Assembly: GCA_009885955.1 (NCBI GenBank) | Contig: VFJS01000068.1 | Coordinates: 62,001-126,000, forward strand | Direction of reading: 5' to 3' | Source: Spirochaetia bacterium | Lineage (GTDB): Bacteria; Spirochaetota; UBA4802; UBA5550 | Length of the DNA stretch: 64,000 bases | Shown: positions 18,556-64,000 of the stretch, one piece after another | Position numbering within the stretch: position 1 is the first letter of the stretch | Layout of the letters: each line of letters begins with the position of its first letter | Made by a program: the position numbers and the translations under genes | Notes under the pieces: generated by a model | The model's input: the letters and a program-made list of their open reading frames with translations, nothing else | Databases searched by the model: none | What the model was told of the DNA's origin: nothing

Positions 18556-18695
18556 TTCCTTCTCCATAGTTGTAGATTGATATAATTAATGACATATTTT
18601 GCTGAAAAAGTCAAGTTCAAAATAGTATTCAGTTATTTTTATCATTTTTTTTATAACAATTTGCTAATCATTCTATTATTTTGTATATTGATGGG

Positions 18696-19325
18696 ATGAA
18701 TTTTAAAAAATACAATAATTATCTGATTTGTATAGGTATAGTATTTGTCTCTCTTATTTCTGTTTTAACCCTGGGGCAGGATGAGAGGAGATTTACATAT
18801 CTTGGTATTGAAAATTGCAGGTTATGCCATGATGAGAAAAATTTCATGAACCAGTATGCCATCTGGCTCTCATCTCCCCATGCAAATGCGGTTAAAATTC
18901 TGACAACGGATAAAGGGAGAAAAATCGGAGAATCAGCCGGCATCCAAAAGCCCGGGGAAAGTATTGAATGCCTCAAGTGCCATACAACCGGCGGAGGTGA
19001 ATCGGAATTAACAAAAAATGAAGGTGTCGGGTGTGAATCCTGTCATGGCCCGGGAAGCGGATACTCAAGCATCATGAATCATGTAGACCTGAGAAGCAGA
19101 AAATTAGGTTATGTGAAGGCAAAAAAATTCGGCATGTACCCGATTCTATCTTACGAGGATAATTTGCTTAAGAGGGAAAAGCTATGCAATTCCTGCCATA
19201 AAAAGGATAGGTACTGCTGGCCTGAAGACGTGGAGGGTATTAAAAGGCAGAAGATTACAATCCAGGTTATCGACAGCCTCAGGAAGGGGGACGTCAAGTT
19301 CTACCACTCGCTTCGAAAGAACTGA
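18696..19325 (+). CDS. Exported tetrahaem c-type cytochrome
   Basis: After an N-terminal membrane segment (about residues 10-26) the mature part has four CxxCH haem sites: CRLCH, CLKCH, CESCH and CNSCH. The spacing, with SSPHANAV before the second and VGCESCHGPG at the third, matches the cytochrome c554-type multihaem family, which carries electrons in the periplasm. A fifth histidine-rich stretch (FYHSLRKN) is at the end. No reductase or other haem gene is adjacent. I start at ATG 18696, not the TTG at 18681. Its last 32 bases overlap the convergent gene at 19294-20295. Confidence 0.88.
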   Translation: MNFKKYNNYLICIGIVFVSLISVLTLGQDERRFTYLGIENCRLCHDEKNFMNQYAIWLSSPHANAVKILTTDKGRKIGESAGIQKPGESIECLKCHTTGGGESELTKNEGVGCESCHGPGSGYSSIMNHVDLRSRKLGYVKAKKFGMYPILSYEDNLLKREKLCNSCHKKDRYCWPEDVEGIKRQKITIQVIDSLRKGDVKFYHSLRKN

Positions 19326-57653: not shown

Positions 57654-60044
57654 TTATTGTTTATTTATATTTGTATCGAAAATTGTAACAATCTGTTTAA
57701 TCGAATTTTCAACAATCTGTATCGGACTTGATATACTGTCCTCTGATGCCATTTCCAGAATATCCGAAAGTTCTTTTAAGAAATCCAGAAAGAGATTAAC
57801 AATCTGTTCTATGGAATTGACCTGCTCATCCATTTTGGATATCTGCCCTTTCTGTTCGTCGATATCTTTTTTTGTTTCCTCTGCCAGGTTTCCGATCTCA
57901 CCGGCAACCACAGTAAAACCTCTTCCTTCTTCACCGGCGCGGGCGGCTTCGATCCTTGCATTTAAGCTCAAGAGATTTACCTGTTCATTGGTTGTCTCAT
58001 AATTTTTCAAACCTTCGCTCATTGCATTTTTTAGGCCGATAAGGATATTTTTTATGTTGGCCAGTTTTTTAATATCCCCCTGGCGTTCCAGAATTTTATT
58101 TCTGGCATTGATAATTTTTTCCAATTTATCCTGGGAAAGTTTAATGATCTCATTTAAATAGGGTATGGCTCTATCTATATTACCGTGCAATTCAGCCCTG
58201 ATTTTTTCCTCCTTTTCTCTTCTATCCAAATCAGTTCTGGCCCTTGTTTCATTCTCTTTTTCACGAATCACCCGCTGCGTGATATCTTCAAAAGTTACCG
58301 AAACGTCGCCGTCGGTTCCAGGAATAGCGCTGAATAAAGTCTGAATATGACGGTCCTCACCTTTTCTGGTCATAATGACAGACTGCTGCTGATGCTGCTG
58401 CTGTTCGATTGCGCTTTTTTTCATTTCAGTAAAAATGCCGGCCAGTTCACCAGGTACAAAATATGACAGAGCTTTTCCGATTACTTCATCTTCGATGGTT
58501 TTTTCCATAAACCGGTAAAAAGTGCGGTTACTCTGAGTGATTAATCCATCCCTGTTTAAAGTAATAATTCCTGCTGATAAATTATCCAGAAGCCTTTTAG
58601 TGGCCTCTGCCAGAGAAGTTGCTTTTTGATTGATCCCGCGGATATTTTTAGAATGTTTCTGCTGGAGCAGCCCTTCTCTTCTATTTTGGAGTATCGCAAG
58701 CCCTCTGAAATTTGCCATGTTTCTTCTGAAAAAATCGACTGTTATGCCTCCGCTGAAAACCAGTGTTATCAGTATTAGTATAGTTGTTTCATGACTAAAG
58801 CCTATTAAATTCCATAAAAATGCATTGATCGGATAAAATAATCCTGTAAGTATTATATATTTTGAATCATTCAGGATATTCAGAATAATATCTTTTTGGG
58901 TAAGGTTTTCCAGATGCTTGGTTAATTTGATGTTTTTTAAATATTTTTCAAAAATGGATAAATATTCATAAGATAAATCAAAATTAGATTTATCGGAATT
59001 GAAGATAATTATTTTTCCTGTTTCATTGCGCTGGATCCGGACATGTTTGGTGAAATAGCTGACTTTCTCGCCTTGTATGTCATGCATATATTGATTTTTT
59101 TCATTGACAATGAATCCTTCAGTGTCCATATGCCAGTGATGTCCATCAAATTCCAGGAGCTGGTCGGGCAGAATCGGGTATTCCAGGCTTTCAACCCTGG
59201 GTTCCAGCAGGGGTTCATTGATTTCCATGACACCGTATAAGGTGTTATGGGCAATGCGTACAGTATTCAGGAAAACAAGGCCCTGACGGTAAACCGATTC
59301 GATGTTCGGAGAATAGGTGATCCCGTCCTTTATCAGCATTTGAGGACGATTATATATTTCGGAATAATCCAGACGAGGCACATTATTATAAATAAAATCG
59401 ATTAAGCCGTTCCGCTCTTTTTGAGATTTTTTGATATATTTTGATTTACCGGTGGAGATGGTGCTGTTTTTGCCGGACTGCCATCCGACGAGGCGTATGA
59501 GTAAAGATAAAGGGAGATATTTCCTGGCCAGGGGTATTTTGCCGGAATAACTAAGTTCGCAATTACCGGCCTTCCGGCCGATCTGGTCCATCATATCCTG
59601 CTTTTCCTTGTAAGTTGCGTTCGGAAGAAGGTCCCAGAGACAATACAGCACAGCCATTTCCAGGAGGTATGAATTCATGAGATTTGGTTTTTGCTCCATC
59701 TCAGCAAGATGCTTTTCATTAAAACCAATCCGTTTAATTAATTTTTGGGCATATTTCGGGCTGTTGAGATCTATTTTTACATACTGGAGAGCGGTGTAGA
59801 TATAATTGTGCGCCCTGGATGGAACATTTTTATCCGGCTTTCCGAGATAAAATTCATTATCAAGTCCATACTTATGAACCATGTCAAGCAGGACCTGTGA
59901 TCTTTTCGCTATGATTGGGGCCGACCAGTCTTTTGAATTAACTGCATCATGGGAAATATTTTTATGTGTATCTCCCTGGCCAGGGGGAATATGGTTTTCA
60001 TCAGGAATTTTTATTGTATTCTGATTTAAAATGGTATTAGTCAT
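57654..60044 (-). CDS. Chemoreceptor-like protein with a novel N-terminal domain
   Basis: About 390 residues of unrecognised mostly helical, soluble domain ([15 protein letters not shown]..., [21 protein letters not shown], ...[14 protein letters not shown]) are followed by one or two membrane segments (about 405-450, including [17 protein letters not shown]), a PAS domain (about 490-595), a coiled coil, and a short MCP-type hairpin tip [21 protein letters not shown] near 700-720. The signalling hairpin is complete but short, and methylation helices are not clear. It may act with CheA-like kinases or as a stand-alone sensor. A glutamine-rich run (QQQHQQQ) lies near the PAS domain. CheB at 49215 is the only chemotaxis gene in the window. 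Confidence 0.82.
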
Positions 60045-61520: not shown

Positions 61521-61545
61521 CAGACGCCAAGTCAAAATTCCGAAA

Positions 61546-61577
61546 AAAAAGGCTGCCCTGATTAGGACAGCCTTTTA
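61546..61577 (+). terminator. Bidirectional terminator between SUMF and lipL32 genes
   Basis: AAAAGGCTG and CAGCCTTTT form the outer stem, with a mismatch and a CC/GG inner pair around TGATTA. T and A runs flank it on both strands, so it can end both convergent transcripts. Confidence 0.85.
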
Positions 61578-61598: not shown

Positions 61599-62417
61599 TT
61601 ACTGGCCGGTAAATTTGTTATATGCGTCGCCAAGTTTTTTCTTCAGTTCTGCTTCTGCCGTTATTGCAAGCTTCTGCAGCTCAGCCGGGTTATTATGAAT
61701 GATTGGGCTCACTCCGCTTATTCCAGGAGGGAACATGACGCCAACGGATGCGGCAAACGAACCTTTTACATCGCCGGGTTTGTATGTTGTGAAGGCTATT
61801 CTATAGAGTCCTCTGAGCAGAAGTTTTTTGGTATCGATGTTTTTAAGATCATCCATGCTCTTCGGAGGGTTCGGCAGTTTTATCATCAAATTTGAATTGT
61901 ATTTAGAATGCCTTTTCTCTTCATAGGTGGAATCACCATCATCATCATCGCCAAGTTTCTGAATGGCGTTTTTAGAGCCGGCAACGATCTGGTCCGGCAT
62001 AATAGCTCCCATTCTTTCCACCCTTACCCAGGTATCAAACCAGTTGGGCATATTTTTTTCCGCATCGGTTGCAGCTTTGAATGTATCGCTTACCATGTCA
62101 TCTTTGCCTGGTTTTGCAATCTCACCCGTCGGAGAAATCATCCTTACATCCATCTCGGCTATTACGGCCGGGATCCATAGGTAGAGGTAATAGGCATTTT
62201 TTGATCCATCTACCATTCCATCGGGCGCTGTTCCGGGTTTGATAAATCCAAAGTAGTTAACTGTAGCCGGATATGGCAGTTCCTTTACCATAGTTTTCCC
62301 GGCAACTGTTGTTGAAACGGTGAAAGAGCTTTTTAAGGATGGCAGACCTGAAGCGCATCCTACCATAACACTGGCTATCACTGCAAGAGCCAGTATCAGG
62401 TTAAATTTGTTTTTCAT
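61599..62417 (-). CDS. lipL32: LipL32-family major outer-membrane lipoprotein
   Basis: This 272-residue precursor matches the family established for Leptospira LipL32 along its whole length. The signal peptide ends VMVGC, so Cys21 is lipidated. Conserved blocks include [101 protein letters not shown] and [20 protein letters not shown]. The acidic cluster DDDDGD at 157-162, which binds calcium in the leptospiral structure, is intact. The C-terminal helical tail differs from my memory of the leptospiral sequence. LipL32 forms an abundant surface coat that binds host matrix components in pathogenic Leptospira; that role cannot be assumed here. AGGGGAAC precedes the ATG and a strong promoter lies at 62460-62488, consistent with high expression. 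Confidence 0.96.
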
Positions 62418-62459
62418 ATTGTTCCCCTTATATTAATTATTTTTTGTTAATAAAGATTA

Positions 62460-62488
62460 ATAATAATTCATATTTTCCGGTTAGTCAA
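62460..62488 (-). promoter_or_regulatory. Strong promoter candidate for lipL32
   Basis: On the minus strand TTGACT (62488-62483) and TATTAT (62465-62460) are separated by exactly 17 bases, close to the sigma70 consensus. The -10 ends 43 bases before the ATG at 62417, which fits a short leader with a good ribosome site. Nothing else in the 371-base gap to the next gene resembles a second promoter for it on this strand. Confidence 0.65.
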
Positions 62489-62687
62489 TGAAAAAAATGA
62501 ATTATCAAATTTGATTATTGATGATATAATACTTTAATATTTTGATTCAGTCAATATAATTTTTTTTATGCCAATTAATTATTTGGGTATATTATTAGCC
62601 AGGAAAACATATCATATAGCTTTGATACGTAATGGTTTATAGAAAAATTAATAAAATACTAAATTTTTTTTGTTGTCAGAACAAAAA

Positions 62688-62716: not shown

Positions 62717-62788
62717 TTTATGTTTGCATTTATAGCTATTTAAATTGTTTTTGTATTTATGAATTTTAGCATATTAATGGAGACTATC

Positions 62789-64000
62789 ATGCCCATATTG
62801 AAAAAATCAAGGTCCCTGAGAAAGGGATTTAAACTCATCGAGCCTAAGGAGCCTGAACTCTACAGGGAGCAATTCCCTTACGAGGAGGTGCCTAAGATTC
62901 TTTTTGATGGAATCATGGTGCCAAACTCCATTCCAGGAGATTTCTGGATTACAGATACCACATTCAGGGACGGCCAGCAGGCCAGGGCTCCATATACTGT
63001 TGAGCAGATTGTCGTACTCTATGAAATGCTGCACCGGCTTGGAGGCCCTAACCATGTAATCAGGCAGTGTGAATTTTTTCTCTATAGTGACAGGGACCGG
63101 CAGGCTATAGAGGGGTGCAGGGGAAAGGGCTTCAAATACCCTGAAATTACCGGATGGATAAGGGCAAATAAGGATGATTTCAAACTCGTGAAAGATATAG
63201 GGCTCAAGGAGACAGGGATACTGACATCTGTATCCGATTACCATATCTTTATCAAGCTTAAAAAAACACGTAAAAAGGCGATGGAGGAATACCTGGACAT
63301 AGTAAAAGATGCCCTTGACAAGGGTATAATTCCGCGCTGCCACTTTGAGGACATCACCAGGGCGGATATTTACGGGTTCTGCCTCCCCTTTGGTGAACAG
63401 CTCCTGAAACTGGCGGGCGACAGCGGCATGCCGGTAAAAATTAGGCTGTGCGACACCATGGGATTCGGAATTACCTATCCCGGGGCTGTTCTGCCCAGGA
63501 GCGTGCCCAGGCTTGTCAATGCATTTCACAATGAGCTTGGATATCCTTCTGAGTGGCTTGAGTGGCACGGGCATAACGATTTTCACAAAGTCCATATTAA
63601 TGGGACTACGGCCTGGCTCCATGGAATATCAGCCCTCAATACCTCGCTCCTCGGCTATGGGGAGCGTACCGGGAACTCACCGCTCGAGGGGGCCATCATT
63701 GAATATATCGGGCTGAAAGGCAACGCCAACGGAATTGATTTATCAGTCATAACCGAGATAGCTGATTATTACAAGAATGTTGTCCGCGCAGAGGTTCCCA
63801 GGAATTTCCCTTTTGTAGGAAATGAGTTCAACACTACAAGCGCCGGCATCCATGCCGACGGCCTGCTGAAAAGCCAGGAGATATACAATATTTTCAACAC
63901 GGAAAAGCTCCTGAACAGGCCGCTGAAGATCACGGTCACGGACAAGTCAGGGATAGCCGGTATTGCGCAGTGGCTGAACGACTTTTCGCGTTCCAAATCC
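62789..64000 (+). CDS. LeuA/homocitrate/Re-citrate synthase family enzyme (C-terminus beyond window)
   Basis: The frame is open from ATG 62789 to the window edge, 404 codons. GGAG lies 8 bases before the ATG. The enzyme is a DRE-TIM metallolyase: DTTFRDGQQARAPY carries the first metal Asp and catalytic Arg, FEDITRADIYGF, LCDTMGFGITYPGA and EWHGHNDFHK contribute metal ligands (HxH and Asp), and GERTGNSPLEG follows. The long LGGPNHVIRQ and LPRSVPRLV segments resemble the Re-type citrate synthases of anaerobes more than canonical 2-isopropylmalate synthase, but this is from memory. It condenses acetyl-CoA with an oxo-acid. The missing end would show whether a leucine-feedback domain is present. 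Confidence 0.8.
   Translation, partial: MPILKKSRSLRKGFKLIEPKEPELYREQFPYEEVPKILFDGIMVPNSIPGDFWITDTTFRDGQQARAPYTVEQIVVLYEMLHRLGGPNHVIRQCEFFLYSDRDRQAIEGCRGKGFKYPEITGWIRANKDDFKLVKDIGLKETGILTSVSDYHIFIKLKKTRKKAMEEYLDIVKDALDKGIIPRCHFEDITRADIYGFCLPFGEQLLKLAGDSGMPVKIRLCDTMGFGITYPGAVLPRSVPRLVNAFHNELGYPSEWLEWHGHNDFHKVHINGTTAWLHGISALNTSLLGYGERTGNSPLEGAIIEYIGLKGNANGIDLSVITEIADYYKNVVRAEVPRNFPFVGNEFNTTSAGIHADGLLKSQEIYNIFNTEKLLNRPLKITVTDKSGIAGIAQWLNDFSRSKS

Follow-up and report, generated by a model that had tools for sequence, protein, structure and literature searches.

Infectious Leptospira are marked by LipL32, a lipoprotein whose origin and function have long been puzzling: it is abundant, conserved and present in all infectious species, is absent from saprophytic Leptospira (PMC4758666), and yet is dispensable in the published knockout, which keeps virulence (PMC8951592). 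The abundant leptospiral protein binds calcium through D132, T133, D164, D165 and Y178 (PMC5566480), is ~98% identical among pathogenic species, and is encoded by a gene that deviates from the GC content of its genome (Gardiner et al., PMC4080168). LipL32 homologues outside Leptospira have been known since 2008–2014, from Pseudoalteromonas, Bacteroidetes and Treponema brennaborense (PMC4080168). Deletion of the homologue of Pseudoalteromonas tunicata cut attachment to extracellular matrix tenfold and lowered attachment to an alga, leaving attachment to polystyrene unaffected (PMC4080168). The nearest non-Leptospira relative that we found described in the literature was about 47% identical.

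A lipL32 gene outside Leptospira

We analysed a window of 64,000 nucleotides, the whole stretch to which the coordinates below refer, from a contig of a Spirochaetota metagenome-assembled genome (MAG). It contains one intact lipL32 open reading frame, single-copy in the host genome, whose ATG start lies behind a clear Shine-Dalgarno sequence. Its features are as follows.

61599..62417 (-): lipL32 gene, 272 aa (PF12103, NF038394, 70% identity to PDB 2wfk)
62355..62366 (-): lipobox codons M18-V19-G20-C21, from the sequence; predicted lipidation at Cys21
62031..62036 (-): putative calcium ligands D128 and T129 (leptospiral D132, T133), from the alignment and the ligand list of PMC5566480
61932..61949 (-): acidic DDDDGD cluster (D157-D162), including putative ligands D159 and D160 (leptospiral D164, D165), from the alignment
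61899..61901 (-): putative calcium ligand Y173 (leptospiral Y178), from the alignment; invariant in 20 homologues
61818..61871 (-): loop-alpha3-loop [18 protein letters not shown], residues 183-200, from the alignment
61608..61688 (-): extended C-terminal helix, residues 244-270, from the alignment and the AlphaFold2 model
62423..62429 (-): Shine-Dalgarno sequence AAGGGGA
62460..62488 (-): proximal of two promoter-like TTGACT-17-TATTAT sites, identified by consensus alone
62526..62554 (-): distal of the two TTGACT-17-TATTAT sites, likewise identified by consensus alone
61543..61577 (-): intrinsic terminator, 13-bp stem and U-run (-20.3 kcal/mol, z -4.1)

The sequence-only reading had recognised a LipL32 homologue here, and our searches confirmed that the gene encodes a true LipL32, with a resemblance far beyond chance. 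LipL32 (PF12103) was the only Pfam match (E = 5e-60), and a search of PDB sequences returned LipL32 chains exclusively (E ~ 1e-115). BLASTP aligned 250 residues with 2wfk (residues 20–265), of which 70.0% were identical and 82% positive. The NCBIfam LipL32 equivalog NF038394 scored the protein at 421.3 bits, above its curated cut-off of 300, whereas 10 further homologues from outside Leptospira, drawn from across the family, reached 121–218 bits. The length of 272 residues, the lipobox, the DDDDGD cluster and the differing C-terminal tail were all as that reading had described, and Cys21 aligns beside the leptospiral Cys20 site.

The gene apparently stands alone as a monocistronic unit. Upstream lies an intergenic region of ~340 bp with 18% G+C that holds both promoter-like sites, with identical hexamers; these paired sites, the strong Shine-Dalgarno sequence and the strong terminator would be indirect signs of high abundance of the protein. 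The diagnostic lipL32 qPCR primers and probe had 6 or more mismatches wherever they were placed on the window gene, and cross-amplification is therefore unlikely.

The neighbours of lipL32 comprise a SUMF (FGE-sulfatase) protein, a cupin and a PAS/MCP-signal protein, the last being the chemoreceptor-like protein of the earlier description, which had also correctly listed a multihaem cytochrome elsewhere in the window (cytochrome c554-type, 18681–19325). The N-terminal ~480 residues of the PAS/MCP-signal protein (57654–60044) had no Pfam match. The divergent neighbour starts at 62759 and continues beyond the window to contig position 126618; it fuses an HMGL-like (isopropylmalate/homocitrate synthase-type) domain to a C-terminal Cache/PDC-like sensor (L108:4759-6618), and homologues spanning both parts occur in genomes G057 and G077. 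A 271-aa minus-strand open reading frame at 62807–63622 was rejected as a gene, being a shadow of this HMGL-like/Cache gene. The closest homologue of the HMGL-like neighbour (62%) is in G057, where the only neighbour shared with the window was a cold-shock gene belonging to a common paralogous family, so that no empty insertion site could be recognised. No window neighbour gene was found beside LipL32 at other loci, apart from ubiquitous response-regulator domains and one match of 36 residues in L053, and the viral contigs, plasmids and phages searched contained no LipL32, so that no transfer vector was seen.

The host genome

The contig measures 138,759 bp and belongs to a Spirochaetota MAG of 4.77 Mb in 117 contigs (98% complete); lipL32 sits ~14 kb inside the contig. 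This MAG falls in a class of Spirochaetota, probably UBA4802 in GTDB, that differs from the class of Turneriella parva, which in GTDB also holds Leptospira; our comparison set included 1 genome of the host genus, 20 of its family and 46 of its class. In a 16S tree, which places the host through relatives because the MAG has no 16S gene, genes of the host family and order formed a clade sister to Turneriella's class (100/99).

Protein-coding genes agreed with this placement. GatA, encoded on the contig, was 60–68% identical to most of the host class, 50–53% to Leptospirae and 46% to G200, presumably Treponema brennaborense; GatA and MoaA also lie close together in many host-class genomes. Ribosomal protein S2 was 70–78% identical to family-mates against 62–67% to Leptospirae, with corresponding values of 77–79% (to G032 and G198) against 49–55% for EF-Ts and 73–77% against about 48–52% for RRF. 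The genes flanking lipL32 on both sides match the host class. The contig thus does not place inside Leptospira, and the earlier suspicion that the host genome is not Leptospira is confirmed. The genome size and sensory genes make it likely that the bacterium is not host-associated, and the lineage is apparently environmental. The Leptospira 16S primer LA matched exactly most host-class 16S genes (L083, L087-L090, L093, L094 and L096) and that of Turneriella (L097); we rejected this match as a placement marker, as the primer, though widely used, is not genus-specific.

Distribution and phylogeny

LipL32 proved not to be common across spirochaetes: PF12103 matches occurred in 7 of 393 Spirochaetota genomes and LipL32-type proteins in 2 of 46 genomes of the host class. 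Among the 48 Leptospirae genomes, those of Turneriella's class, Leptospira-type LipL32 was not found, and a family member of any type was present in one, from another subgroup. A family-profile scan of 84,980 species genomes yielded 69 loci, which belong to Bacteroidota, Ignavibacteria, marine Gammaproteobacteria, Spirochaetota and, in one case, Nitrospirota; the best was 48% identical to the window protein. The scan returned no Leptospira, though leptospiral LipL32 fits its patterns, and no Leptospira genome was recognised in the scans by phylum, class or genome name, so that these counts apparently cover non-Leptospira genomes. The rarity proposed by the sequence-only reading therefore stands for this form of LipL32 in spirochaetes, but its remark that few relatives are described elsewhere was overstated, given these 69 loci and the homologues published in 2008–2014.

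Two further observations concern the spread of the family. In Spirochaetes UWPOB_SPIRO2 (G011; L005/L008 and L031), two LipL32-family genes lie ~0.9 kb apart, and the second copy is very diverged, with 28% identity and a very long branch. A LipL32-family gene in a Thermodesulfovibrionales (Nitrospirota) MAG (L066, JAUXOF010000071.1) is nested among spirochaete copies, which likely reflects another transfer, or else misbinning.

The family tree and the BLASTP comparison proposed earlier both tied the window protein to Leptospira, represented in all comparisons by L. interrogans LipL32 from the PDB. In a tree of 67 proteins the two were sisters with support of 100/99, separated by 0.38 substitutions per site, and the next nearest proteins (Alteromonas, Pseudoalteromonas and Photobacterium) lay at least 1.3 substitutions per site away; with long branches removed, support for the pair was 100/100. 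No other relative found exceeded 48% identity with the window protein. The copy of a family-mate (G198/L053) was 35% identical and stood in another branch, and an AU test rejected a clade of it with the window LipL32 (p = 4e-6). Of the 20 homologues aligned, the window protein alone carries the 12-residue insert in the alpha-3 loop, which lies within [16 protein letters not shown]. The loop-alpha3-loop is where the pair agrees best, with 17 of 18 residues identical to Leptospira against 95 of 137 in the core. The C-terminal extension (GVSPII...), of leptospiral type, was without counterpart or shorter in nearly all other aligned homologues. Among the non-Leptospira copies found, the window LipL32 is the closest outgroup of leptospiral LipL32.

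Predicted structure and calcium site

An AlphaFold2 model of the window LipL32 (pLDDT 83) contained the C-terminal helix 244–270 and predicted the jelly-roll fold of 2wfk, 3frl and 2zz8. Foldseek returned LipL32 crystal structures as best matches (E = 1e-33), and the overlay on leptospiral LipL32 suggested earlier, made here by VIA-align, gave Z 25.9 with an rmsd of 3.0 A over 222 residues. Middling VIA-align matches to a calpain C2-like domain (Z 9.7) and a collagenase collagen-binding domain (Z 7.2) were set aside as functional evidence because they reflect shared architecture.

Aligned with leptospiral LipL32, the window protein keeps 5 of 5 published calcium ligands (D128, T129, D159, D160 and Y173), of which all except T129, itself nearly so, are invariant among 20 homologues. 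We regard calcium binding as putative, and the retention of the site over all phyla indicates that calcium-stabilised folding may be an ancestral property of the LipL32 family.

Origin of the gene

We propose, with a probability of roughly 0.7, that a true LipL32 in a non-Leptospira spirochaete serves as a calcium-stabilised coat or adhesin, and that one horizontal transfer links this lineage with Leptospira. The transfer, in either direction, would have taken place after LipL32 had gained the loop and the C-terminal helix, and a single such event is the simplest account. It is favoured because the 70% identity of LipL32 exceeds the 62–67% of S2 across the classes; with Turneriella and other Leptospirae standing in for Leptospira and one host genome, a MAG, LipL32 was nearer to Leptospira than S2, and far nearer than EF-Ts, UMP kinase, RRF, UppS and Dxr, were to Leptospirae. 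A lipoprotein acquired by descent would be expected to be less alike than 70%, as the 35% family-mate copy suggests. The GC content of leptospiral lipL32 reportedly deviates from that of its genome, and the window gene shows no such deviation; this tips the balance slightly in favour of transfer into Leptospira, or of an old arrival in the host lineage. It is possible, though we lean slightly against it, that the pathogenic-Leptospira lineage received LipL32 ready-made, already equipped with calcium site, alpha-3 loop and C-terminal helix, from a sister-class spirochaete living in the environment, or that both lineages received it from a common donor. If so, features now interpreted as serving host interaction, among them the loop credited with modulating TLR2 binding, would have evolved for another purpose.

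The same similarities could be explained by vertical descent, with LipL32 present in the ancestor of Leptospirae and the sister class, kept under constraint in infectious Leptospira and the host lineage, and mostly lost elsewhere. The sister relationship of the two classes in the 16S tree of relatives, the strong constraint implied by a loop identical at 17 of 18 positions, and a GC content and codon use ordinary for the contig all fit this history; we nevertheless consider it unlikely, because it needs many losses (a family member survives in 1 of 48 Leptospirae and 2 of 46 host-class genomes, and saprophytic Leptospira have none; PMC4758666), and because LipL32 is more conserved than S2 and other core proteins and the family-mate copy belongs to another branch. 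The native composition counts in turn against an assembly or binning artefact, in which a fragment of an undescribed Leptospira was joined to a MAG contig. Such an error would account for a gene closest to Leptospira in one genome only, a MAG of 117 contigs, but it is very improbable for a gene ~14 kb inside a contig, with class-matching genes on both sides and a product that differs by 30% from L. interrogans LipL32, compared with the ~98% identity among pathogenic species (PMC4080168). That the protein is an ordinary distant PF12103 homologue with no special link to Leptospira would suit a widespread, patchy family (the 69 loci; PMC4080168), and is scarcely credible in view of the sister support of 100/99, the equivalog score above its cut-off, the shared insert and the AU test.

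Function

In the proposed mechanism, Sec would export the protein, which would be lipidated at Cys21 and then placed in the outer membrane; Ca2+ at D128/T129/D159/D160/Y173 would lock the jelly-roll (C2-like or collagen-binding-domain-like) fold, and the locked fold would form an abundant coat on the envelope and also serve as an adhesin for extracellular polymers. A calcium-stabilised envelope coat or adhesin is the most likely function. L. interrogans LipL32 has, however, been argued to be subsurface (PMC3544172), and this location, together with the virulent knockout (PMC8951592), weakens an adhesin role. With protein and history unchanged, the role could instead be mainly structural and subsurface, in envelope stiffening or as a calcium reservoir. 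This reading, to which we give clearly the smaller share of our belief, draws on the argued subsurface location (PMC3544172), on unaffected virulence (PMC8951592) and on a calcium site invariant or nearly so family-wide, and is opposed by the loss of attachment to matrix and alga in the P. tunicata mutant (PMC4080168). The sequence-only reading suggested that LipL32 originally had a structural or calcium-related role and not one in virulence. This is plausible because the calcium site is kept family-wide, but no more than that, as the only non-Leptospira mutant indicates a role in attachment to biological surfaces.

Comparison with known LipL32 proteins

What is new here, as far as the literature searched shows, is that the outgroup nearest to leptospiral LipL32, complete with the loop supposed to mediate host interaction, occurs in an uncultured, apparently environmental lineage; our literature search turned up no paper that brought together LipL32, Spirochaetota and metagenome-assembled genomes. 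At 70% identity and from a sister class, this outgroup allows the tree of leptospiral LipL32 to be rooted and so makes its origin testable. It also shows which parts of LipL32 occur beyond Leptospira, and it is a natural counterpart against which calcium, matrix and TLR2 binding can be compared.

The window protein shares with L. interrogans LipL32 (2wfk, 3frl, 2zz8; NF038394) the fold (as predicted), the lipobox, the five calcium ligands, the loop-alpha3-loop insert and the C-terminal helix, at 70% identity over 250 aa. It differs in a host genome from another class, in having 3 residues fewer N-terminally and 1 fewer before the acidic cluster, in residue 156 (G, in place of the fifth D of Leptospira LipL32), and in its last ~15 residues ([14 protein letters not shown]). 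PtlL32 from Pseudoalteromonas tunicata and the proteins akin to it, compared here through Photobacterium (L009), Alteromonas KUL42 (L010) and Pseudoalteromonas 0303 (L011), likewise have the LipL32 family domain, an acidic DDDGD cluster, a TYEEKRH-like sequence and the calcium ligands, but these three are 46–48% identical to the window protein, lack both the 12-residue insert and the C-terminal extension, and, unlike it, fall below the equivalog cut-off (205–218 bits). The LipL32-like proteins of other Spirochaetota (G198/Zod_Metabat.271, GWB1_27_13 and Treponema brennaborense) share PF12103 and the core of the calcium site with the window protein, but are 35–41% identical to it, have an NDDSSE-type acidic loop and belong to other branches.
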